DNA from: Nitzschia sp. pyKryTriq1
Lineage: Eukaryota > Bacillariophyta > Bacillariophyceae > Bacillariales > Bacillariaceae
DNA length: 64,000 bases
Assembly (NCBI GenBank): GCA_956465555.1
Contig: OY101119.1
Span: forward strand, 1,908,629-1,972,628
Direction: 5' to 3'
The position numbers were made by a program, and so were the translations under genes. The notes beneath the pieces are model-generated. The model made no database searches. It had not been told where the DNA came from and was given only the letters and a program-made list of their open reading frames with translations. Below, in pieces: positions 19,451 through 33,067 of the stretch (positions are counted from its first letter, which is position 1; each line of letters starts with the position of its first letter).

Positions 19451-20235
19451 TCGCTAGAGGCATGAGTTTTCCTCCCACGTTATTGGGCGTAGAACGCCAG
19501 GCTACGTTCCAATTTTTGCACAAACATACTGCGCATTCTTCATTTTGAGGCAAGTCGCTCGAAAGAAAGTTGACAATCTTCTGTACCAACCACGGGTTGG
19601 CACTACTTCTGGTATCACCGAAGAGGCACAGGCCCATCTCCTGGATATTGTTCCTGAGTTCAAAGAGGTGCCAGTGTTAAATTCTTTCGACCAACACGGA
19701 CTGGATGGGGGTTTCCCATTACATTTCATTTACATAGAATTGAAACCCTTGTCTCAACCCCACATGAAAACATTGTAGTGTAGAATATATTAAGATAGTA
19801 AGTACTCGTCGAGAGGCCGAAAAGTAGCCTTACAGTACCAGGTACTGGTATTGCTCCCTCAGCTACCGTAGCGAAAAGCTCTCCAGCCACGAGTTCAGTC
19901 ACGAAAAAGTGTCATGAAGCGCGTGAAACTCCGACAAATAATGAACAAAACGTCATAAATAGTCGCGTGAACTACAGTAACTCATACCGGTAGTAAATTT
20001 TGTATGTGAAGGTTGTACGAGTACCTGGTACTGTACTGGCTGAGTAGAGAACGGTTCTCTGCGCGTTGTTCCACCGCAGAGAAGATGGTGACGCTTCGGA
20101 TTCGTTGATGGCTCTCACAAAATCGAATTGCAACGAGCGCAATTTCACCAGCTACGAAGAACACCTGCCATACATCCTTTGACATCCTCCTCCTCCTCTC
20201 AACAACAAACAAAGTATCAAACAACAAGCATCACT
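19451..20235. other. Intergenic
   Basis: 785 bp between the two PAS genes, presumably the promoter of the second. One gtac cluster at 19838-19855 and another at 20020-20040. No gene supported. Confidence 0.5.
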
Positions 20236-21381
20236 ATGGCATCCAAGTATCTTCTCTCTCTTCCAGCCAAGCATCACCACGTGCTGCAGCAGACAAAGCG
20301 AGATGCTCGACGTATGGGGACTCTCGCTTACCAATATCTCCATCCTCACCTCAAGAATCGAGATGAGAACATCGAATGGTCCAACACACTATTGCATGCC
20401 TCACCCGAATCAGATTTCGTCGGCACACCATTTCCTGGTGATAGGACTGCACGTGCCTCTGAATGGCCTTCAGCACTGTCCTTTGCATCCCCCGAGGCAG
20501 ACTTCACGGCGGAGAAAATACCCGAAGCGGTCAGCAGGCCCCAAAGTCGTCGACCACCAGCCCCGATCGACAACAGCTTTCTCGTCTCTCACCCAGAAAA
20601 TGCATATGGCTCAGTTCACCTGGGGGAGGTCACGACAGAGTCGATGAAAGCTGAGTGGCTGGAATCTCGAGGCATAGAGTACACCCCACCCCTTTCTAGC
20701 GGACGAGACAATGTGGCTCCGATCGACGCAGCGCTCTTGGTTTCCAGCCCAGAAAGTGCTTTTGGCTCCACGCATGCGGGAGAATTCCTGAGCGATTCCT
20801 TCAAGGCTGAATTGCTAGAATCACAAGGTGTTGAGTACAAGCCTGCAAAATCTAGCGATGCTATCATGTTCCAGGAATTCCTCGACAACATGGCATTGAT
20901 GGCATCACCAGAGTCAGCGAGTGGATTCGTTGCTTCGGCCGAGTTTCTTGACGAAGCCTCCAAGGCAATGCTTTCTAAATTTCATGCTCGAGCGGAGGCT
21001 CTGCCCAAGACGCTCGAAGAAGCCATGGCAGACCCACGTGCTATCGTTGTTACTTCCCTCACTTCTCCGTTCGATATTGTTGATGTGAACGAGGCGTGGG
21101 TTGGTCTCTGCGGTTATGAGCGGAACGAAGCTTTGCATCAAAACCTAGGCAAACTCCTACAGGGCCCCGATACCAATGCAGACGCAACGAAAACGATGGT
21201 CTCGCAGCTTCAGCAGGAACACTTTGCAGAATCCATGATCACAAATTATACCAAACAGGGTAGAAGATTTCGAAACAGAGTACAAGCTGGATTGCTTTCT
21301 GATGACAAAGGCCAAACCAAGTATTTTGTCGGCGTTTTGGAAGAAATTTTCGATCAAGAAGGGGGAAAGATGGCCATGTGA
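20236..21381 (+). CDS. SPE-repeat protein with C-terminal LOV-like PAS domain
   Basis: 381 residues from the ATG at 20236. Residues 50-240 carry five copies of a motif around (A/S)SPE(S/N/A)xFG, at about 55, 85, 119, 171 and 224. Three of them are followed by an (S)xKAEWLESRGIEY-type helix, giving a repeat of about 50 residues. Residues 268-370 form a PAS domain close to LOV: IVDVNEAWVGLCGYERNEAL, KLLQGPDT, NYTKQGRRFRN and KYFVGVLEEI. Both Asn of the NY...FxN pair are kept. The photoactive Cys of the NCRFLQ motif is absent (NLGKLLQ) and the Gln of GVQ is Leu. Classic adduct photochemistry is therefore not expected; flavin binding is open. It lies 785 bp downstream of the bZIP-PAS gene on the same strand. 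Confidence 0.75.
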   Translation: MASKYLLSLPAKHHHVLQQTKRDARRMGTLAYQYLHPHLKNRDENIEWSNTLLHASPESDFVGTPFPGDRTARASEWPSALSFASPEADFTAEKIPEAVSRPQSRRPPAPIDNSFLVSHPENAYGSVHLGEVTTESMKAEWLESRGIEYTPPLSSGRDNVAPIDAALLVSSPESAFGSTHAGEFLSDSFKAELLESQGVEYKPAKSSDAIMFQEFLDNMALMASPESASGFVASAEFLDEASKAMLSKFHARAEALPKTLEEAMADPRAIVVTSLTSPFDIVDVNEAWVGLCGYERNEALHQNLGKLLQGPDTNADATKTMVSQLQQEHFAESMITNYTKQGRRFRNRVQAGLLSDDKGQTKYFVGVLEEIFDQEGGKMAM

Positions 21382-21948
21382 AACTCAGTGAAAGATTGAG
21401 TAGAATAGGCGACACAAACACTTGCTCTCTACTTGTATAAGCTACTACTACTTACAGATGATAATACGGCCCAGGCTAATATTCCAAAGCACAATACTCC
21501 TACATCATTCATCATTGCACTTATCATTCTATCGTAGAACTTCTCTCAGTAGTAACTACAGTACCAGGTACAGGTACAGAGACAGTGCCCGGTAGGGAGG
21601 GCAGCTAACGCTCTACCTTTCTACCGAGTAGTTCCTGGTACCGAAGAAAAGCTTGCTGCTACTTCGACGACCTCCTCTACCAGGTAGTCTACCGGTACTA
21701 GAAAATACGCTGATGGCATGAAGTTCAGTTCCACGTGTAAGCCTTTGATTCTTGTGGCGGGCATCGAGAAACGTACAGTATTCATAGAGGTACGAGTTAT
21801 TAGGTACGAGTACCATGATGTGATGCAATGAGATTATCGCACAAAACGCAGTAAAAGCTACGTGTGAGACAGAGACGTTGCAATTTGCAACACCCCATCT
21901 ACGTCCCGTCAAAACCAAAAGGAGATTTGTTGGTTTATAAAGAATATC
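21382..21948. other. Intergenic
   Basis: No gene seen. Short gtac/accaggtac cluster at 21555-21600 and another at 21635-21700. Confidence 0.5.
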
Positions 21949-22974
21949 ATGAGTGTTCCCGGAAAGTACGTCCCGCCGCATCGCCGTCATCTGGAGCGTG
22001 ACAAGGAAACATCGGGTGGTCGGGGCCCAACCTGGACGACAGAACACAAACCAACTTTCATGAGTGGTGAAGCAGAGGCTGTCGACGCGTTATGCAAGGC
22101 ATTTACACTCGTCTACTGCGTCAATTTGCGCCGGCGTGCTGATCGTTGGGAGGCCTTTTCTCGTCGTATGCAATCAGCCTTAGGCAAGAGGTGTCAGCTT
22201 TTCATTGACAAGGTGGAACGATTTGACGCCATCGACGGGGCCGCTCTACTGAAGACTTTAGAAGAAGAAGGTGTCCATGACGAAGATTTTCCTAAGATGG
22301 ACTGGGATGCGTCCAAAAACGCTCTCTATGACAGGCATGTTCAGCCACCGATCAACAAACGCATGACCCCAGGGGAAGTGGGTTGTGCCATGTCCCATGC
22401 AAAGCTGTGGCGCCTACTTGAAGAGCGACAAAAATCTCGAGACACAATGCTAATTCTGGAGGACGATTCCGTCTTTTACAACAAAGAAATTAGAGAATGC
22501 TCGAAACGAAGTGGTCCTCGAAGGAACTTTCTGGAAGCTTTTACAAGTCTCTGGAACCTACTGCCTGCAGACTGCTGGGATATTCTATACCTAGGATTCT
22601 CACCAAGGGGCGACAGGATACCTGTAGATGTCAGCCAATCGAAAATTCGCAGTGTGCCTATCGAGGTAAATATCTTCCGTCCAACGTATGGCTTCCACAC
22701 ACATGCCTATGCACTTACAAAGGCTGCAGCCTCCACTTTGCTTTCGAACGGTCCCGTTTGTGGTCCCTTGGATGTATGGCTTGCCGACAATGAGTGGTTT
22801 GGGCTGAAAGTTTATTGCGTAGTGGTCGCACACGAAGGATACAATCGCGAAGGTGCCTGTCTCATCTCGCAGAGAAAGCATGATACTTATAGTGACATTC
22901 GACAATCGGGTCGAGCAGACGACGTCAAGCCAAAGACGACCTACGCCACATCTCCAACCAACCGACAATTGTAA
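21949..22974 (+). CDS. Glycosyltransferase family 25 protein
   Basis: 341 residues, single exon. The GT25 domain starts at about residue 55: LVYCVNLRRRADRWEAF, then MTPGEVGCAMSHAKLWRLL and MLILEDDSVF with the metal-binding acidic cluster. DILYLGF and the late YALTKAAASTLL segment also fit. GT25 members transfer galactose or related sugars in LPS synthesis or on collagen hydroxylysine; the acceptor here cannot be told. The N-terminus starts VPGKYVPPHRRH and has no signal peptide, which is unusual for a secretory glycosyltransferase and suggests a cytosolic role or a missing upstream exon. Confidence 0.8.
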   Translation: MSVPGKYVPPHRRHLERDKETSGGRGPTWTTEHKPTFMSGEAEAVDALCKAFTLVYCVNLRRRADRWEAFSRRMQSALGKRCQLFIDKVERFDAIDGAALLKTLEEEGVHDEDFPKMDWDASKNALYDRHVQPPINKRMTPGEVGCAMSHAKLWRLLEERQKSRDTMLILEDDSVFYNKEIRECSKRSGPRRNFLEAFTSLWNLLPADCWDILYLGFSPRGDRIPVDVSQSKIRSVPIEVNIFRPTYGFHTHAYALTKAAASTLLSNGPVCGPLDVWLADNEWFGLKVYCVVVAHEGYNREGACLISQRKHDTYSDIRQSGRADDVKPKTTYATSPTNRQL

Positions 22975-23365: not shown

Positions 23366-25505
23366 ATGGTAGACTTAATCCTGGTTCCCGTTCTTGGTAA
23401 GGTGTTGCTTAACCGTCGTCCCTTGCGGAAGAATCATTCGGTTATTCCGATATGCCCAAGAAACGGGTCCGCTGAAATTGGTCGCCTCGAGTTGCTCTCG
23501 TCGTATTACGCAAGTTGCGGGTGTACGGAAAATGTTTTTTCTACAAAGAATAAATGCGTATCATGCCAGGAGATAAGATGGTGTTCCCGCTTTCTGTCTC
23601 GCAAAATGATGCGCTTTTTGTTTCCAAAGACCGAGAATTGTCCCCCGAAACTCTCGATCCGAGGGAGATTTTCTTCTGTATTGGTGAGACAACGACAAGA
23701 AGACGAATTCTTCCCTCTAGATTTTGATCAAAACAAGAGACTCCAATGTCCCAATGAATGGAGGGGAAATCAGGAGATTCGTCCAGGGACAAGAATTTGT
23801 GTTCTGGAGCCGGAAGGGGAAGGTCGTCTGGAGTTTGAAGTTTTCAACAAGGAAACCAACAGAATGACAGTCTATATCGCGCCTTTCGGTCAGGATTTAC
23901 CCGAAAGGCGCATTCGAATACTGCAGAGTGGACTCAGAGAAAAGGGAATTTCGTTGGCGGAAAGTTATCTACACGCCACACACATTGTTGTGAGCAGATT
24001 CGTAAAAGATTTGAATCGTCTCGCACTGCATCTGGAGTCAAGCAAAGTTGATCTTCAGCGCCATTTTGACGAGCAAAAAGTCAAGTGCCTGTTACCGCAA
24101 TGGATTTCCCACCTTTCCGATGACAATGCGTTTCAATATCATTGGATTGGCTATTCAAAACGCGTGGAGACATGGGGACAAGGCGGAGACCTCCCCCCAT
24201 CGAACAATCCGTTAAGGAATACTACTCGCAACCCTTGCCGAAATGCTTTTCTAGTCAGACAGCTACTGAGATTATCCAAAGCGTACGAGAAAGCTTCTCT
24301 TTTTGAGGAGGAACAGTGGAAAGCATTGCAATTTCATAAGCTCGCTGGGCGCCTGCAATGCTTGGATTTCGAAATCAACCAGGACAATTTTACGAAAACA
24401 CTTTCAGCGCTCCGAAAGGTCCCGGGGATAGGAAATTCAGCTATTGCCATCATCGAAGACATTCTAGTCAGCGGTTCGAGTCGCCGGGCGGAATTCTTGG
24501 AGAATGACCCGGCGAGAGTGGCGATGAGCAGGCTCCAAGGTATCCATGGTATCGGGAGAGTCCAAGTGAGTAATCCTGCACTTGTGCCTCTTCCATTTCA
24601 TGAACTTTCTCACTCGTGTTTTACTCCTTCATTTTCTTGCAGGCTCTCCGTCTTTACCAAAAAGGATATCACACCATTCAAAGTCTACGGAGCGCGGTAC
24701 AATCGGGCGAGGTTGAGCTGACCCGTGAGCAACTCATCGGTCTTGATTGTTTCGAAGATCTTCAAGAAGAAATGGCGCGCGACGAGGTCGAAAGTATAGG
24801 GAATCTCGTCATTGATGCGTTTCACAACATCAGCGATACTCCAGCGGAAGCCACGATCATGGGAAGCTTTCGCCGTGGAAAGCCATCGTCCGGCGATGTT
24901 GACGTTCTCATTACAATGAAAGACTACCCAGACAGCGTGCCTGGGTATGCATTGCCGGATTTGATCGAAAAATTATGCCAGCAAGGTCACGTCGCTCACC
25001 ACATCACTCAGATACGTGGTTTTCCCTCACATGACAAACCATCTATTGACAGTCCACCACCAAGAAAGAAACAACGACGTCAGTCATCGAAAACAAGCAA
25101 GTTGTGCAAGACATATATGGGTGTTTTCTTCTCCCCCAAGTTTCCAGAGAAGCGACGGCGAGTTGATATCAAGATATACCCTTACAATCAACATGCTTTT
25201 GCTTCGTTGTGTAAGTTGGTAATCATGCAGACGAAAAGCAGATTCAATCTTGTTTTCAACCGTATATCTCAACACTTCTTTTGAATTCAGACTTCACAGG
25301 TGGAAAGTGGTTCAACAGATCGATGCGACTTTGGGCAACGCAGAAATTCAACTGGAAGCTTTCGGACAAAGGTCTTTTTGATATCAGCAGCGGAAGGACT
25401 TTATTGAGTGGTGCTACCAGCGAGGAAGAAATCTTCAGCAAACTCAGACTTCGCTATAAAGCTCCATCGGAGCGTCTCTTTTTCGACGACGTTGAGCCCA
25501 TGTAA
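23366..25505 (+). CDS. DNA polymerase X family (Pol lambda-like) with N-terminal FHA-like and BRCT domains, copy 1
   Basis: 660 residues. Exons 23366-24565, 24643-25210 and 25291-25505; introns 77 and 80 bp, GTGAGT and GTAAGT donors. Residues about 20-160: FHA-like domain of the PNKP type (AEIGRLELL, FLSRKMMRF, IRPGTRICVLE) with a CGC...CVSC insert. Residues about 166-246: BRCT domain (YIAPFGQDLPERRIRILQSG to LLPQWIS). Then the 8-kDa helix-hairpin-helix region (KVPGIGNSAIAIIEDIL, GIHGIGRVQ) and the polymerase palm: GSFRRGKPSSGDVDVLIT with Asp485 and Asp487, RRRVDIKIYP with Asp575, then YFTGGKWFNRSMRLWA. All three catalytic Asp are present. The lysine used for dRP lyase in Pol lambda is Ile here. 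Expected role: gap filling in end joining or base excision repair. A paralogue lies at 30434-33067. Confidence 0.9.
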
Positions 25506-25526
25506 CCTGTAGTAACATTCATTCCG

Positions 25527-26207
25527 TCACCTTTTCTGTAGTAGTTTTCGAATCGTCCCCTTATAAAAGGCCGAGTGTTCTGGTGGAGGCCTATTTTTCT
25601 GTCGTCTTTTACGGAAAAATGATCTCATAAGCGCTGCACTTTCATTTTCAAGTACTCCTGGGATCACTTCATCTATGGCATGCATGGGGTGCTGAACGTC
25701 CAGTAGCCGGATATGCGTCTTGATCGCTCCCAATCGAAGGTCGGGTGCAGCATACACAATAGAAGACACACGGAATGCTAGAGCTGCAGAGAGACACATC
25801 GGACAAGGCTCCAATGTTGTATACAGAGTTGAATTGAGGAGGCGCCAGTTCTTCAGTTTCTTGGCTGCTTGGCGCAATGCCAGCAATTCGGCATGCGACG
25901 ACGCGTCGTACTGAGTCTCCACTAGATTGTGCGCCTCTGACAGAACGATCGGCCAGCCAGCCCCATTCCGTTGAACGACGATTGCTCCAATCGGCACCTC
26001 TCCTCTTTTCTCCGCTCTCTGAGCTTGCCGCATGGCCAGCTTCATGAAGTGTTCGTGCACCGCAGTCTCATTCGATACGTTCACCCCTTCCAGCATGGAT
26101 GCTCGCGTACGAAATCTCGTCCAAGGAAGAATGAAGCTTTCCCCCATCATGCGAAGAAATGCTACTGAGGCCAGCAACGCCGCCTTGAGAATACAAGGGG
26201 ATCTCAT
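25527..26207 (-). CDS. TadA-type tRNA adenosine deaminase, probably plastid-targeted
   Basis: 226 residues from the ATG at 26207. The deaminase domain begins at about residue 50: HFMKLAMRQAQRAEKRGEVP, SSHAELLALRQAA with the zinc-ligand His and catalytic Glu, and LEPCPMCLSAAL with the two zinc Cys. This is the bacterial-type TadA that converts A34 to inosine in tRNA-Arg(ACG). The N-terminus RSPCILKAALLASVAFLRMM followed by GESFILPWTRFRTRAS is a signal peptide with Phe after the likely cleavage site and a basic stretch, as in complex-plastid presequences. Plastid tRNA editing is therefore inferred. It ends 22 bp from the end of the polymerase gene, convergent with it. Confidence 0.88.
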   Translation of the reverse strand: MRSPCILKAALLASVAFLRMMGESFILPWTRFRTRASMLEGVNVSNETAVHEHFMKLAMRQAQRAEKRGEVPIGAIVVQRNGAGWPIVLSEAHNLVETQYDASSHAELLALRQAAKKLKNWRLLNSTLYTTLEPCPMCLSAALAFRVSSIVYAAPDLRLGAIKTHIRLLDVQHPMHAIDEVIPGVLENESAALMRSFFRKRRQKNRPPPEHSAFYKGTIRKLLQKR

Positions 26208-26932
26208 GGTCAACACGTGTACCTTGTTTCTTTGCAGCAGCTAGCTGTCGAATCGCCTCGTCATGGTCAATTTTTGTTCTTGGCTATTGGCTACCGGTAT
26301 TACTGTTGCCTGTTGCAGGTTGCAGGTTGTAGATAGAGCAGAGCCAACCTGCGCGCTTCGTTCCACAAACAAAAATTATGCGGTCGGTCGGTCGGTCGGT
26401 CGGTCGGTCGGTCGGTCGGTCGGCCGGTTGGTGGTTGGTCGGTTGCGTCGGTCGGTCGGTCGGTCGGTCGGTCGGCCTACGTGGCACGTACCGGCTCGCA
26501 TCGTACGTCGTACGTACCTGAACGGTACCGGTTACCGGTGCGGGTACAGTACTCATACCGGTACCACCGTACCGGTACCGCGTTCTACAGGTAGGTGCAG
26601 TGGCGGCTGTTGGTCCATACAGGTGTGCGCGAAGAAGTGGACGAAAGAAGTGGCGTGCGCGCAGAGGCATATTTAGCTGTAGGGGCCCACAAATCAAAAT
26701 ACACGTAAAAAAATTAAACCCTCTCACATTTTGGTTGCCAAACGATGAAATTTGGAACTGTGCGCGCAAGTTGAATGTGTCGGTTGCAACAATCTTTGCA
26801 AGTGGTCTGCCGGGCGAAAATCACAACTTGAGTCGAACATCAAAATAGGAGGAACTTGCTTTTCTTTTTCGAAAGTCGTGATATTTCGAGTCTAGACTAG
26901 CAGCAGGATCGATTCCCACCTACTAGAGCAGA
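26208..26932. other. Intergenic with (CGGT)n and GTAC cluster
   Basis: Divergent region between TadA and the kinase. It holds a tetranucleotide array at 26381-26476 and gtaccggt words at 26500-26590. No gene supported. Confidence 0.5.
26381..26476. repeat. (CGGT)n microsatellite
   Basis: About ten plus seven uninterrupted cggt units separated by a degenerate stretch at about 26420-26448. It reads as poly-(SVGR) in one frame, which is an artefact. Confidence 0.95.
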
Positions 26933-28801
26933 ATGTACTGTCTAAGCGGCTTTCGAAAGGGTAAGCATGGCGCCGAGGAAAGGAGTTCGTACCTGAACTC
27001 GTCTGGCTATGTGAACTACGAGTACGGCGCCAACATGGAAATATTGGACAGTCCGTCTGAGCTTCCGAAAAGGATTGAGTCAATATCGTCTTATGAACCA
27101 CCTTCCCTCTTCTGCGGGAAATATTCTACTGTTCTTTCGAAGAAGCATAGGGCAAGGAAACAGGCAGACCGCCTACGGGGAAGAATTGGCGCCACCTCGG
27201 TCGAAGACGAGGAGACCGAAAGTCGCTTTCAACTCGAGTTAGAAAAAATGCATCCAAACATGAATATGAATACGAAAGTTTCAAAACGCCTCGCAAATGC
27301 TGCTACCTCTGACATCGAATGGGATTTTGATGGGATGCGCGTGACTGATCATGAGTCGTCGATCATGAATACACATCGAAGAGTTCCTCAAGGTAGGAAC
27401 GAAGGCAACAACAGTAATCTGCTGCTGCAAAGAGAAAATGAATCACTCAAAACAAAACTAGAGAGAAGCAATCAGCTCCTGGAATGCGCTAGAGAGGAGA
27501 AAACCTTGCTCCGCAGCGAAATCGAGATTTTGAAGATTCAGGTTGATGCTCTTCGAGCGACACAGGGGACCAACCTCGCCGGCAACGATAATGAGACTAT
27601 CTGCGACTTTAAAAGACAAATGACTGGGTACCAGCAGCAAGTGAAAGACGAACAAAGCAAACGACAGAAGATCGAGCAAGAACTCGAGTCCACGAGGAAA
27701 GAGAACCAAAAATGTCGTGAAAAAATGCACCTTCTGATGTTTCAGCATGGTCTGAGCGATTCCCAGACATTCCCAGACATAGGGCCGTCTAATCGAAATA
27801 TCATTGAATCTGCTGGCAAGGTTGCCACCTATCAGCTTGGAACAAGTTTGGGAGAAGGTCACTATGGCAAAGTGGCTCAGGGAATAGATCTCAAGACTCA
27901 AATGCAATACGCTGTCAAGGTGCTCAACAAGAATAAAATCAAACGATTCAAAGACTTGCAGCAAGTTGCCACGGAAATTCATGCCCTCAAAATGTACCCA
28001 CACGAAAATATTATTCGTCTCCAAGAAGTGATACATGCGCCACAGAATCTGTACATAGTCACTGAACTATGTTCGATGGATTTGCACCAGTATCACAATG
28101 AAGTGGGCCTATCTGAACATGGATCGCAGCAAGTCATCATGGGAGTCTTAAAGCCCCTACACCACCTTCATTCACATGGAATTTCCCATCTTGACTTGAA
28201 ACCGGAGAACATTCTCTTGCGTGCGAATTTTAATCCCAACAAGATCAATCAAAACGACATTAGGCTCTGCGATTTCGGTCTCGTCAACATGGCACCGAAC
28301 CCGACAAAGAGCAAAGATATCATACGAAAAGATTATGTATGTGGGACTCCTGGATTTTTCGCACCTGAAATGATTCTTGATCGGATGTTCGAAGGACGAC
28401 GAGCTGATATGTGGTCCCTTGGATGCATTATCCTTGAGATCACTTTAGGATTCACCCAGGAGTGGATAGAAAGTTACGACCTTATCGAGAAAAGCCCATC
28501 AGCTTTTCGCAGTGGTATTGAAAAGTGTTTGGAAGAAATTGCCCCTGATTTCTATCCTCAGCATCTGCTGCTTATGGATATCATTCACCGCTGCCTCGCT
28601 CTTGATGCCTTGAATCGAATTCAGTCTTCAGAAGCAATCTGTCATCCATGGCTGAACGACATTCGAAACAGTGAAGAAACGAGGCAGGACTACACAGATT
28701 CTACGGGAAGTACAAACTCACGCTCAAGCTCAGAAGACTCATATTATTCTCAAGTTTATTCGCAGAGGAACGGGTTGGTCTCGTCGGCCATTCTGAGCTA
28801 G
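26933..28801 (+). CDS. Serine/threonine protein kinase with N-terminal coiled coil
   Basis: 622 residues, single exon. Residues 1-155 are without known domain; about 160-270 are a charged coiled coil (LQRENESLKTKLERSNQLL and onward). The kinase domain is about 297-575: GEGHYGKVAQG glycine loop, YAVKVLNK with the ATP lysine (about 328), a conserved helix-C Glu, HLDLKPENIL (about 419), CDFGLVN (about 447), FFAPEMI and ADMWSLGCIILEI. The HRD motif reads HLD, so the Arg is missing (a non-RD kinase), which usually means no activation-loop phosphorylation requirement. A Ser-rich tail ends the protein. Overall CAMK-like; the substrate is unknown. Confidence 0.88.
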   Translation: MYCLSGFRKGKHGAEERSSYLNSSGYVNYEYGANMEILDSPSELPKRIESISSYEPPSLFCGKYSTVLSKKHRARKQADRLRGRIGATSVEDEETESRFQLELEKMHPNMNMNTKVSKRLANAATSDIEWDFDGMRVTDHESSIMNTHRRVPQGRNEGNNSNLLLQRENESLKTKLERSNQLLECAREEKTLLRSEIEILKIQVDALRATQGTNLAGNDNETICDFKRQMTGYQQQVKDEQSKRQKIEQELESTRKENQKCREKMHLLMFQHGLSDSQTFPDIGPSNRNIIESAGKVATYQLGTSLGEGHYGKVAQGIDLKTQMQYAVKVLNKNKIKRFKDLQQVATEIHALKMYPHENIIRLQEVIHAPQNLYIVTELCSMDLHQYHNEVGLSEHGSQQVIMGVLKPLHHLHSHGISHLDLKPENILLRANFNPNKINQNDIRLCDFGLVNMAPNPTKSKDIIRKDYVCGTPGFFAPEMILDRMFEGRRADMWSLGCIILEITLGFTQEWIESYDLIEKSPSAFRSGIEKCLEEIAPDFYPQHLLLMDIIHRCLALDALNRIQSSEAICHPWLNDIRNSEETRQDYTDSTGSTNSRSSSEDSYYSQVYSQRNGLVSSAILS

Positions 28802-29473
28802 AGTCACGTCGTCATTGGCTCTCTCCGTTGCGTAAAAAATGAGATTAATGTGATGTTGAACCCTCTTGTGTCTCTCAATGCTACTAGTATGTAGTATGTA
28901 TTGCTCACCTCTCACACGTACGTGTAGACCGAGCGAGTACGATTTCACTCTGTATGTACCGGTATGCGCGTACCAGGTACCGGTACTGTACTGTACCAGT
29001 ACGTCTCGTCTGCCTCCGCCTCGGCGCGAGCACTGCGTTCGTCTCTCGCCCGGCGGCCGGGCAGCGCGAGCGCGCGCTGCGAACGTAGGTAGGAAATGTA
29101 TGCATTATACATATGAGACAAACCTATTTATACCTACATACGTACTTGCCATGCCCATGCGATGCGCGGTCCCCCCCGCGCGCGGTCTGTTCAGTGACAG
29201 TCCCGCGCCTTTCCCGGCGTGTCGCGCATTCGCCCGATGATTGTAAACGCTAAATAAATCGAGAACGAGACACGCCGACCGGCGAATTTTCTGCCTTGAA
29301 GTTCGAAGTCCGATCTTTTCAAGCGGCACGTTGTTTGATGATCAGAGCTGGTACTGGTATCCTTTCGAATCCTCAAGGTACATGTGTAGGAGCAAAAACA
29401 GCTGTACTTGTACTCTCAGGCCGATCCCGAAGTGTTACAAGCAAGCATTTTTTAAAAGTTACTCTAGTAGACA
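28802..29473. other. Intergenic with GTAC cluster
   Basis: Promoter region of the FCP gene on its right side. gtac/accggtac words at 28955-29005, GC-rich DNA 29010-29090. No gene supported. Confidence 0.5.
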
Positions 29474-30321
29474 ATGAAGCTCGCCACCCTTGCCCTTGCT
29501 GTCGGCTCTGCCGCTGCATTTACTCCTTCCAGCTTCAATGGAGCTGCCGTAGCTCAGCGTTCGGCAACCAAGGCTTCGATGTCCATGGAATCATCCGAAG
29601 ATTTGGCTGTTTTGGCGAAGAAGTGCAACCCTGTCCTTGGCTTCTTTGACCCCCTTGGTCTTGCTGGGCAAAGCTTCTGGGACACCACTCCCGAAGAAAC
29701 CATCGGCTTTTTGCGGGAATCCGAAATCAAGCATGGTCGCATTGCTATGTTTGCCTTCGTTGGATACATCGTTCACGCCAACGGAATTCACTTCCCCTGG
29801 GCCATGCAGCTCGACGGAACACCCTTTCCTTCGGTTTCAAATGCCCCGGAAGCTTGGGATTCGATCTCTGAGGTTGCCAAGTATCAAATCTTTGCCTTCA
29901 TTGGATTCCTTGAGATTGTAGGTACTCTCGTTGTGGTTTACATTTTGCTATAATTTGCGAGTGCCGAAGTCAACACTAACCCTGTTTCTATTACTCATAG
30001 TGGCGTGAAATCATGGCTGATAAGCACTACATGAAAGGAGGCAAGCCAGGTGAATTCCCGGCCTTTGATTCCCGATACATCCCTGGAGGAGCATTGAACT
30101 TGTATGATCCCTTCGGATGGTCAAAGAACCGATCAGAGGAGGCCAAGGCTGCTGGTCTTGTTAAGGAAATCAACAACGGACGCCTTGCTATGATCGGAAT
30201 TCTTGGATTTTTGTCCGAAGGAAAGATGGCGGGATCAGTTCCTGCTTTGAAGGGCATCATCCCTGCATACTCTGGTGAGCCAATGGCACCATTCGCCGAA
30301 TCCATCTTCCCTTCTCTCTAG
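29474..30321 (+). CDS. Fucoxanthin-chlorophyll a/c light-harvesting protein
   Basis: 254 residues. Exons 29474-29917 and 30001-30321; intron 29918-30000 (83 bp, GTAGGT...TAG, with a ctaac branch-like site). Presequence MKLATLALAVGSAAAFTPSSF ends in the AAAFTP variant of the ASAFAP plastid motif. LHC helix 1 is ESEIKHGRIAMFAFVGY, helix 2 lies around AKYQIFAFIGFLEIWREIM (formed across the splice), helix 3 is VKEINNGRLAMIGILGF; the Glu/Arg pairs that bind chlorophyll are kept. The sequence FPWAMQLDGTPFP differs from the main Lhcf group, so I do not assign a subclass. Thylakoid membrane antenna protein. Confidence 0.95.
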
Positions 30322-30433
30322 GCTACTTGGACCGTTGCCGTCCAGCCCAATATGATCGCATGGAGGATGTTTCGAGCTGACGTGTACTCTTAATTATTTA
30401 GAATCATCTTGCAGTCCATTGCGTATCAGCACA

Positions 30434-33067
30434 TTACTTCACCCATATGTAGTTTTTGTCTTCCTTGAATTCCGCCTCAGATAATTCTACTTCAACGGCG
30501 GGACCAGTCTTGCTTAACACCGCATCGAAACTGTCTCGTTCGTGCGGCTCCTTGTAGACAAGGTTCAATCTATCGAATACCTCAATCTCGCTTGAGGCTT
30601 CCATCACTCGATCGGTGGTACCTCCATAAAAAAGACCATGGTCATTGAGAGTGTATCTATGAATCAGCAGAGAAAACATGTTGAGATCTTCTCTCAACAG
30701 AAACAGGAACGCTTGGACTCATAAGTGCCGTCAAAGGGCTTACCTGAATTTCCTCGAAGCCCAAAGCCTCATCGATCTATTGAAATAGCCATTTCCTGTG
30801 AAGTACAGAGATGCGAAAATACGCTCCCGCCAGGGATATAACTTGATGTCGATTCTTCGCCGTTTTCCTTCCATTTTTGGGCTTCGAGCGACTCCCATGT
30901 ATGAAGAACCGTGCGATCCTTTGCTAGTCATGTATCCCACAGGCTTACTCGCTTTCCAGGCATCTTTTGGGATGTGTCTGCTCGAATTCATGTAGTCTGA
31001 AACTTTCGATCCAGTTTCCATTCCTGGAAGGAAAGTCAGGTGGTACAATATATGGCCACGTTCCCAGAGCATGTCCACGATCCTGCTCAATCCTTGATCT
31101 GGGTTCTTTTTCACAAAGGACTTGTGAGTAATGTGAATGTCGATATCTCCGCAGGTTGCTTTCAGGCGACGATAGCTCCCCATTATCTGAACAACAGCGT
31201 TTGGAAAGATTTCCTGGACGACTTCGTCCACCAGGTCACCAATCATTTTAACTTCATCGCGTTCCATCTCTTCGAGAATGTCTTCATAACAATCAACACC
31301 TACAAGTTGATTTCGGTCAAGAAAGTGGCGACCCTCTCGAATAGCTATCCGAACATCCGAGATGTCTCGAAATTCTCGATGGATGAGATCAAGAGCCTGG
31401 AAGGGAAATTAGATTTGCCTGACAAAGAAAACGACAACCGAGAAGCAATCCGAATGGTCTCGTACGTACTGTTTTGCGACCAACACCCCAAATGTTCATC
31501 ATGTTCTTCATGGCAACACGCTTTGGATCTGTGTTGAACTCTCCGATTCGACGTAATGCACCCGTTTTTAGGTACTCCTGGATTTTGTCGATAGAATTGC
31601 TCCCAATCCCTTTGATTTTGCGAAGTCGACTTAAAGTTTGAGGATCATTGTTAATCTCAAAATCAAGATGAGTCAACCGCCCAGCAATAATACGGAACAT
31701 ATAAGCTTTCCATTGATCCATTTCGAGTAAGGGACAGGACTGGTGAAGGTTTGATAGTATCCGAAATACTTCAGCTATCTCCTTGTTTTGCTCAAATTGT
31801 AGATTTCTCCCAGTCCTTTCTGACTTTTTTCGTTCGAAGCTTTGCCTCTTGTTGATATCACCATGCCAGATATCCAACATGTCTGGCGTGCGTAACATTT
31901 CGGCTGCCGCTATCCATCGCGGCAAAACGCATGAAATATCATTCTTACAAGTTATATAGACGAGATTGTTAGATGTATCCCAGAGCATCATGGAACGGGG
32001 TGGCTCCGTCAAAAACATACCTGTTCAATGTATGACCGCAGATCGCTCTCTTCAAGGTTGAGTATCGTACTGACTTCTCTCACAGTCGAGACCTGATGGC
32101 TTATCACGATATGAGTGGAACAGAATACATCATCGGTCTCTGCCATGCCAAGTTTGATTGCTTTGTTGGCAAGAAACGTCCGTCGGACGGATGACATATC
32201 ATGACCGAGTGGTACTAAAAACAGAATATATTTCTGTTTCTCTTCGTTGACGCAGTCGCTTTTTCGTTTCGCTGGGTTGGAAGAAAGCGAAGATACCTCC
32301 TCACCACTACAGCGGACACCTGATGCTGCCGAAATTGAAGTATCGTCTGCGGTTGGGTTCAGCATTGTTTCTGCGTCCAGACATTTTCTTTGAAGCTTAG
32401 GGGTCACACTGGACGAGTCGTCTGGAGAGGCATGCTGCTGCTCCAGTGATGTTTGGAGGGCGATAGACCGCTGACCCCCCCGTTGACGGAGAGCCTCCTC
32501 CTCCAGCTGTTCTTTCAAAAGAACAACTACGTGTAAAGATTTTTTCCCGTCCTTCTCAGGGGAAGCCAAACGAATCTTCTCTCCTGGTTGGACTAGAATT
32601 TTTTCACTCCATACGTCATTTTCCGTTGCCAAGAGTTTGGTGCCTACATGAATGGTGGCATGGGTTCCTCTGCCTTGCACGTAAACACGATGTTCCTTCC
32701 CATCGTCGTCGTCGTCGTCACATGTAAACCTGAGTAATCGACGAGACAGCGCCGTCACAGCCCACTCGTTCACCGCTGAGCAATTGTCGCACTTATCTTG
32801 AGTACTCCAGGGATTGGCATTCTGCACACTACTCGTGCTCGTACAACTGCAACTACAAGACCTATGCTGTGCTGAGAGAATCTCCAGTCGACCAATAATG
32901 ATCTCATGTGAAGAAGAATTATCACTCTCGCTGAACAGAAGGATCGGTTTCTTGAGATATTCTGCTCCCACAAGTGTTCTTCCATCTCGAGAAATTGCAA
33001 GCGCGAGACTACTACCACGTGGCTGGTTCGCTCTCTCGTCATTATTTGACATGATAGCAGCATTCAT
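30434..33067 (-). CDS. DNA polymerase X family (Pol lambda-like) with N-terminal FHA-like and BRCT domains, copy 2
   Basis: 798 residues, four exons: 33067-32021, 31943-31470, 31396-30744 and 30656-30434; introns 77, 73 and 87 bp. FHA-like region about 15-170: EIIIGRLEIL, TALSRRLLRFTC, GTHATIHVGTKLL and VQPGEKIRLAS, with a CSCSC...CDNC insert. A long Ser/Gln-rich linker follows, then a BRCT (FLVPLGHDMSSVRRTFLANK to CVLPRWIAAAE). Catalytic region: KIKGIGSNSIDKIQEYL (the Lys matching the dRP-lyase lysine of Pol lambda is kept), IWGVGRKT, GSYRRLKATCGDIDIHIT with Asp591 and Asp593, RRRIDIKLYP with Asp690, and YFTGNGYFNRSMRLWA. The C-terminus has an extra acidic end. Paralogue of 23366-25505, on the opposite strand; same architecture but strongly diverged. 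Confidence 0.9.

Follow-up and report, generated by a model that had tools for sequence, protein, structure and literature searches.

Two neighbouring X-family polymerase genes of a diatom with an orphan N-terminal domain ahead of a BRCT-like region

Two neighbouring genes in the 64,000-nucleotide stretch of Nitzschia sp. pyKryTriq1 DNA analysed here (the window) raise the question of which domain precedes the BRCT region of their products. The initial annotation had regarded both as X-family DNA polymerases (PolX) equipped with a forkhead-associated (FHA) domain of the PNKP/aprataxin/APLF type. Copy 1 was modelled on the forward strand (23366..25505; exons 23366-24565, 24643-25210 and 25291-25505) and encodes 660 amino acids, while copy 2 was modelled on the reverse strand (30434..33067; exons 33067-32021, 31943-31470, 31396-30744 and 30656-30434) and encodes 798 amino acids; in both genes, open frames were joined across GT-AG introns. 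The N-terminal region, the BRCT and the 8-kDa domain of copy 1 were all found within a single 400-codon exon, and in copy 2 a single 349-codon exon encodes the N-terminal region together with the greater part of the BRCT. Because the N-terminal region is thus encoded in one exon with all or much of the BRCT, the gene models make it improbable in both copies that this region belongs to a separate gene.

The presence of two neighbouring X-family polymerase genes was confirmed by these models and by Pfam matches above the cut-offs to the palm, thumb and lambda fingers domains (E values of 4e-18, 1.5e-17 and 1e-12 for copy 1, and 1.8e-20, 1e-17 and 3.6e-11 for copy 2). The best matches among PDB sequences were Pol beta for copy 1 and Pol lambda for copy 2. 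In the core alignment, the three catalytic Asp residues were intact in both copies: Asp485 and Asp487 of copy 1 lie in the motif GSFRRGKPSSGDVD (24862..24903, forward strand) and Asp575 in RRRVDIK (25153..25173, forward strand), whereas copy 2 carries Asp591 and Asp593 in GSYRRLKATCGDID (31139..31180, reverse strand) and Asp690 in RRRIDIK (30842..30862, reverse strand). The same alignment assigned a YF steric gate to both copies, and a Lys residue follows the third Asp in each (Lys577 in copy 1 and Lys692 in copy 2). From these sequence features, the two copies are probably diverged paralogous repair polymerases of the Pol lambda/SAR type, acting in end joining or gap filling and composed of an orphan N-terminal domain, BRCT, 8-kDa domain, fingers, palm and thumb; a 6-sequence tree, which does not settle their placement with lambda or beta, counts against the Pol lambda-like assignment.

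The 8-kDa (HHH_8) domain was located by Pfam matches below the cut-off at 24233..24475 on the forward strand in copy 1 and at 31551..31793 on the reverse strand in copy 2. Alignment indicated that the Lys residue of the dRP-lyase is retained as Lys469 in copy 2 and is replaced by Ile362 in copy 1; that the residue was lost from one copy only had gone unmentioned in the initial annotation, as had the long Loop1 segments described below. This loss, together with a core identity of 44% between the copies, would be in line with one or both of them being decaying paralogues whose divergent parts have no specific function. Such decay is nevertheless highly improbable, as the long open frames, splice sites and catalytic triads are intact in both copies and four Cys residues of the N-terminal domain have been kept.

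Compared with human Pol lambda, to which their cores are 32-33% identical, the copies share the order BRCT, 8-kDa domain, fingers, palm and thumb, the YF steric gate and the Gly ahead of the catalytic Asp, and copy 2 shares the lyase Lys that is absent from copy 1. They differ from it in the Lys after the third Asp, in the additional N-terminal domain with its CxC...CxxC arrangement, in having no Loop3-like insertion in the core alignment, and in the segment that contains Loop1. In that alignment this segment comprises 42 residues in copy 1 (24988..25113, forward strand) and 51 residues in copy 2 (30902..31054, reverse strand), against 17 in Pol lambda and 30 and 31 in Pol mu and TdT, respectively. 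A long Loop1 with no Loop3 is also seen in Pol mu/TdT and in Aspergillus PolX1, for which passages in PMC12828229 describe a 27-residue Loop1, a palm His replaced by Gly and template-independent synthesis; both Nitzschia copies likewise have Gly at the palm His position. They are distinguished from Pol mu and TdT by the YF rather than GW gate, by the missing palm His, by their longer Loop1 segments and by an identity of just 27-31%.

PMC12362244 describes a cluster of PolX enzymes from SAR (Harosa), including PolXa-d of Paramecium, in which Loop1 is short and the lyase residues are present. In the features given there, the Nitzschia copies agree with this cluster in the YF gate, in the Lys that follows the third Asp (RIDLK in that cluster and RVDIK/RIDIK here), in the acidic second residue of SD2 (SDH there, and SDK and NDH here) and in a BRCT that aligns poorly with metazoan BRCTs, whereas they depart from it in their long Loop1 segments (42 and 51 residues) and, for copy 1, in the missing lyase Lys (PMC12362244). 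As N-terminal additions to PolX, a figure legend of that paper names BRCT, an S/P-rich region or a linker, and the terms FHA, zinc and diatom each occur 0 times in its main text.

The BRCT region, at 23843..24130 (forward strand) in copy 1 and at 31896..32245 (reverse strand, split by the intron 32020-31944) in copy 2, was assessed with an HMM of three PolX BRCTs. The isolated segments scored 6.2 bits in copy 1 (1 of 2000 shuffles as high) and 7.7 bits in copy 2 (4 of 2000), with maxima of 7.2 and 8.8 bits among the shuffles, and on the full proteins the scores were just 1.9 and 3.0 bits. When the segments of both copies were combined in hhalign, a probability of 24.5% was obtained that none of 200 shuffles reached; Pfam gave no BRCT match in either protein. 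The BRCT previously proposed for both polymerases was thus upheld, weakly but at the expected position.

Ahead of the BRCT, the orphan N-terminal domain spans about residues 1-160 of copy 1 (23366..23845, forward strand) and about residues 16-190 of copy 2 (32498..33022, reverse strand). The IGR, Ser-Arg and PG-x-x-I motifs on which the FHA proposal had been founded do occur in both genes, as EIGRLELL (23474-23497), LSRKMMRF (23594-23617) and IRPGTRI (23777-23797) on the forward strand in copy 1, and as IIGRLEIL (32899-32876), LSRRLLRF (32749-32726) and VQPGEKI (32593-32573) on the reverse strand in copy 2. Among 20000 shuffles of each copy, 65 for copy 1 and 13 for copy 2 contained the pattern [ILVM]GR..SR..PGxx[ILVM], which was present in none of the 62 other open reading frames of at least 150 codons in the window, so that this order of motifs is unusual, the pattern having been chosen post hoc and the copies, being homologous, not being independent. 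The N-terminal regions matched each other with E values of 1.9e-4 and 7.4e-5 in a search of one genome, in which the copy 1 domain retrieved only itself and copy 2. No Pfam, NCBIfam or PHROGs family was matched inside the copy 1 domain (E<=10, HMMER filters on), and the copy 2 domain gave no named Pfam or NCBIfam family and two chance-level PHROGs matches (E values of 0.056 and 0.22); against PDB sequences, the domain yielded one chance match (E of 1.9). Pattern searches for relatives returned 47, 3 and 48 stretches in a viral contig collection and 78 and 77 in a genome contig collection, none of them a locus confirmed by tblastn.

The identification of this domain as an FHA was not borne out. 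Pfam detected no FHA in either protein, and an HMM built from 15 known FHA domains, which recovered 15 of 15 members when these were left out, gave at most 2.8 bits for the best stretch of the two N-termini. Even with 36 residues taken from the gene's own Cys-rich insert spliced in, all 15 known domains were recovered at 12.9-48.7 bits, a control in which every domain was recognisable (6 being found by Pfam) and the insert was placed at a node made tolerant. The HMM, its insert-tolerant version, the insert-excised sequence and the profile-profile comparison thus all lent the FHA reading no support, while the positive controls worked. As the BRCT in these two proteins reaches only 6-8 bits, a very diverged FHA could escape detection.

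It was accordingly weighed whether the domain is a strongly diverged FHA of the PNKP/aprataxin/APLF type that has a zinc knuckle inserted after strand 3, ahead of strand 4, and docks on a phosphorylated scaffold; we consider this unlikely. The GR and SR residues of the FHA type are present in both copies, and the GR, SR and PG-x-x-I order, rare among shuffles, is that of the PNKP, aprataxin and APLF domains; however, no profile match was obtained, the four common Cys residues set the copies apart, the NG/NP turn that holds the FHA Asn was seen by eye in neither copy between the SR and PG motifs, and GR and SR are 37 and 47 residues apart rather than 11 as in PNKP. Against the HMMs of all FHA domains, only 25, 49 and 39 of 2000 shuffles scored as high as copy 2, which had also reached 4.9 bits, summed over two stretches, with a first untrimmed HMM, whereas 218, 478 and 513 of 2000 did so against the PNKP-type HMMs and copy 1 was not above its shuffles in any variant. 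The HMM alignment of copy 2 uses the GR residues, but its SR strand does not fall on that of the FHA. Similarly, none of 200 column shuffles scored as high as the full pair in hhalign against all FHA domains, but the probability was 3.1% and the register was another, the match running from the SR strand of the copies and beginning where the FHA profile begins. AlphaFold models of the two N-termini from a two-row alignment had pLDDT values of 40 and 31, too poor to judge the fold. By our own reading, the strands of the weak copy 2 model may lie roughly at the places of FHA strands; Foldseek and VIA-align searches with this poor model returned beta proteins, among them cupins and TNF-like jelly rolls, with no FHA among the best 50 matches of either. 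Among the matches listed in the open-access literature, no fusion of FHA with PolX was found.

The four Cys residues common to both domains had not been remarked upon in the initial annotation. They form CxC-x10-CxxC, a putative zinc site, at residues 51-67 of copy 1 (23516..23566, forward strand) and belong to the Cys-rich insert CSCSC...CDNC at residues 71-96 of copy 2 (32780..32857, reverse strand). Their register across the copies (hypergeometric 1.7e-5, uncorrected for an aligner that favours Cys-Cys pairing) suggests zinc binding; that the case consists of two sequences, and that the copy 2 site lies partly inside a Cys/Ser-rich stretch, counts against our preferred explanation. The C-terminal domain of RPA70 is an OB-like fold carrying an inserted zinc ribbon, and the succession of strand, CxC...CxxC and strand, with Cys residues conserved between the copies, resembles such a fold. 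A beta-barrel, OB-like or of another kind, into which a zinc ribbon is inserted and which would bind single-strand DNA and not a phosphopeptide, is nonetheless a doubtful alternative, as it leaves the strands ahead of the GR strand unaccounted for and no Pfam family was found inside the domain (E<=10, filters on).

Returning to the Pol lambda/SAR-type repair polymerases favoured above, their mode of action may be sketched by analogy. For Pol lambda, PMC12910108 describes recruitment through the BRCT to Ku and ligase IV at broken ends, and the BRCTs of the copies could recruit them to breaks likewise. The 8-kDa domain would then hold the 5' phosphate while the palm fills the gap, and, as in Pol mu/TdT, the long Loop1 may help to keep poorly paired ends together. 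Removal of 5'-dRP in base excision repair could be a further task of copy 2, whereas the usual Lys chemistry would not be open to copy 1. Most likely, the N-terminal domain would be a small beta-rich module held together by a single zinc ion, with a protein or DNA as its binding partner. Such a pair, with its long Loop1, lyase-dead member and orphan domain, would broaden the roles of the SAR cluster as outlined in parts of PMC12362244, and nucleotide addition at breaks in diatoms would become testable, which might bear on their genome-editing outcomes. It is considerably less probable that a stramenopile PolX branch acquired, ahead of the BRCT, a docking domain with a zinc knuckle that is FHA-like or entirely new, and with it a Loop1 that exceeds the one of TdT in length while the active site is of the Pol lambda type. 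If true, this would amount to a self-targeting pair of end-joining polymerases with a lyase-competent and a lyase-dead member, bridging or extending unpaired ends.

Possible partners were sought in the genome. Nothing observed connects the polymerases with XRCC1 or XRCC4. The XRCC1 and XRCC4 families gave no match in searches that had no working control, and the one PNKP-like protein found showed no FHA at E<=0.001, which speaks against a divergent FHA in the polymerases as well. One ligase match falls in a frame of 1062 residues that combines the N and catalytic domains with a long tail at the C-terminus; no ligase IV or BRCT family was detected in it at E<=0.001, counting against the favoured explanation; counting for it, the Ku family matched two places in the genome and the ligase N-domain three.

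Two X-family polymerase genes lie in convergent orientation with about 4.9 kb between them. Copy 1, on the plus strand, comprises exons 23366-24565, 24643-25210, and 25291-25505 and encodes 660 aa, and copy 2, on the minus strand, comprises exons 33067-32021, 31943-31470, 31396-30744, and 30656-30434 and encodes 798 aa. Every intron of both copies was of the GT-AG type, and one intron position was common to the two (GRVQ|AL and GRKT|AL), which fits their origin by an old duplication. In both copies, the palm, thumb, and lambda fingers were detected above the Pfam cut-off and HHH_8 below it. When the genome (40.65 Mb) was searched once for the PolX thumb family, with only the best candidates scored, three matches were obtained, all within the exons of these copies. 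The two polymerase genes proposed in the initial annotation are real, as is the additional domain ahead of the BRCT, and the pair looks like an unusual variety of a known kind of polymerase.

The catalytic Asp residues were intact (Asp485, Asp487, and Asp575 in copy 1; Asp591, Asp593, and Asp690 in copy 2), and both copies carry the steric gate YF and a Gly preceding the first catalytic Asp pair, as does Pol lambda. Core identity was 44% between the copies and 32-33% between either copy and human Pol lambda, and in a six-sequence tree the copies were sisters (support 100/99) with the lambda/beta fork left open. Both copies have a Lys after the third catalytic Asp (Lys577 and Lys692, respectively), and the second residue of SD2 is acidic in both (SDK and NDH); these two features match those reported for the Paramecium PolXs in PMC12362244, which places the latter in a SAR cluster of a 7250-sequence map. 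That cluster is described there as having a short Loop1 and the lyase residues, whereas the Loop1-holding segment was 42 residues long in copy 1 and 51 in copy 2 (counted alike, it measures 12 residues in Pol beta, 17 in Pol lambda, and 30 and 31 in Pol mu and TdT, respectively), and the dRP-lyase Lys position was occupied by Lys469 in copy 2 but by Ile362 in copy 1. According to PMC12828229, template-independent synthesis is performed by PolX1 of Aspergillus, whose Loop1 spans 27 residues and which has Gly replacing His; such activity is thus possible by analogy in the present copies.

The N-terminal domain was conserved between the two copies in the genome search. Elsewhere in the genome, nothing matched copy 1, and copy 2 matched a single place at E 2.18 that is interrupted by a stop. 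Within this domain, Pfam (E<=10, filters on) and NCBIfam identified no family; PDB sequences gave one chance match for copy 2 (E 1.9) and none for the pair, and PHROGs gave two for copy 2 (E 0.056 and 0.22) and none for copy 1. Four Cys residues, located between the IGR (GR) and Ser-Arg (SR) strands, were aligned (C51, C53, C64, and C67 in copy 1 with C71, C73, C93, and C96 in copy 2) and may form a zinc site. For these four common columns, given 150 aligned columns that contain 8 and 5 Cys residues of copies 1 and 2, respectively, the hypergeometric probability was 1.7e-5, uncorrected and from an aligner that itself favours Cys matches.

The BRCT assigned to both copies was judged probable. 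Pfam gave no BRCT match in either, and an HMM built from three metazoan PolX BRCTs scored 6.2 bits on the isolated segment of copy 1 (1/2000 shuffles as high) and 7.7 bits on that of copy 2 (4/2000), but only 1.9 and 3.0 bits at the same places within the full proteins. Profile-profile comparison gave 24.5% probability, in register, with 0/200 column shuffles as high. The Paramecium PolX BRCTs are also described in PMC12362244 as aligning poorly with metazoan BRCTs.

The N-terminal domain had been proposed to be an FHA domain docking on XRCC1/XRCC4-like scaffolds. An FHA HMM of 15 domains (nine known, six from this genome) recovered 15/15 in a leave-one-out control in which the two PNKPs were left out together (18.2-56.5 bits), and still 15/15 (12.9-48.7 bits) when 36 residues of the copy 2 Cys-rich stretch were spliced into each FHA, the HMM being insert-tolerant at that point. 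Against these controls, FHA HMMs gave copy 1 a negative score or none. For copy 2, all-FHA HMMs gave at most 2.8 bits (2.5-2.8; 25, 49, and 39/2000 shuffles as high), in an alignment using GR with the SR strand off the FHA SR strand, and PNKP-type HMMs scored below zero (218, 478, and 513/2000); the first HMM, from untrimmed sequences, gave 4.9 bits summed over two stretches (best 1.7). With the insert excised, the all-FHA model gave 2.1 bits for copy 2 (32/2000) and -3.6 for copy 1 (988/2000). In hhalign, the pair matched all FHA at 3.1% probability in another register, the SR strand being placed at the FHA profile start; 0/200 shuffles scored as high with the full domain and 6/200 insert-cut, and the respective counts against the PNKP type were 27/200 and 35/200. 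Neither copy has NG or NP between the SR and PG (PG-x-x-I turn) motifs. Structure prediction of the N-termini from two sequences reached pLDDT values of only 40.2 and 31.2, and fold searches thus carry no weight. The FHA label is therefore not supported by these comparisons, a very divergent FHA being possible but unlikely, and both FHA identity and XRCC1/XRCC4 docking are unproven and disfavoured at the sequence level.

Genome searches for XRCC1 and XRCC4, run without a positive control, gave no match. Two places matched the Ku family and three the ATP-dependent ligase N-domain, one of the latter lying in a frame of 1062 residues, a possible ligase IV with a long C-terminal tail, in which no ligase IV or BRCT family was found at E<=0.001. 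The one PNKP-like protein in the genome (L021:2086-4743; G000:C8, about 1320085-1322742) has PNK3P and kinase P-loop domains and no FHA match at E<=0.001. Given these Ku and ligase places and a PNKP-like protein with no FHA match at that threshold, end joining via the BRCT is conceivable without any FHA. The open frame of the PNKP-like protein also encodes, after these domains, an aldo/keto reductase (PF00248, E 5.1e-42), a combination for which a literature search returned no paper holding all three terms.

Upstream of copy 1 on the plus strand lie genes for a PAS-domain protein (20092-21378), with short repeated segments by eye, and a glycosyltransferase-25-like protein (21868-22971). Immediately beyond the 3' end of copy 1, the minus strand carries a deaminase gene (25530-26240; PF14437, PF00383), tRNA adenosine deaminase-like as judged by eye, followed by an intergenic GGTC-type simple-repeat array (cggtcggtcggt; 26380-26480, by eye). 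Also between the polymerase genes, on the plus strand, are a light-harvesting gene of the chlorophyll-binding family, consisting of two open pieces (29471-30321), and a protein kinase gene (26927-28798; PF00069), whose long N-terminal region looks coiled-coil by eye.
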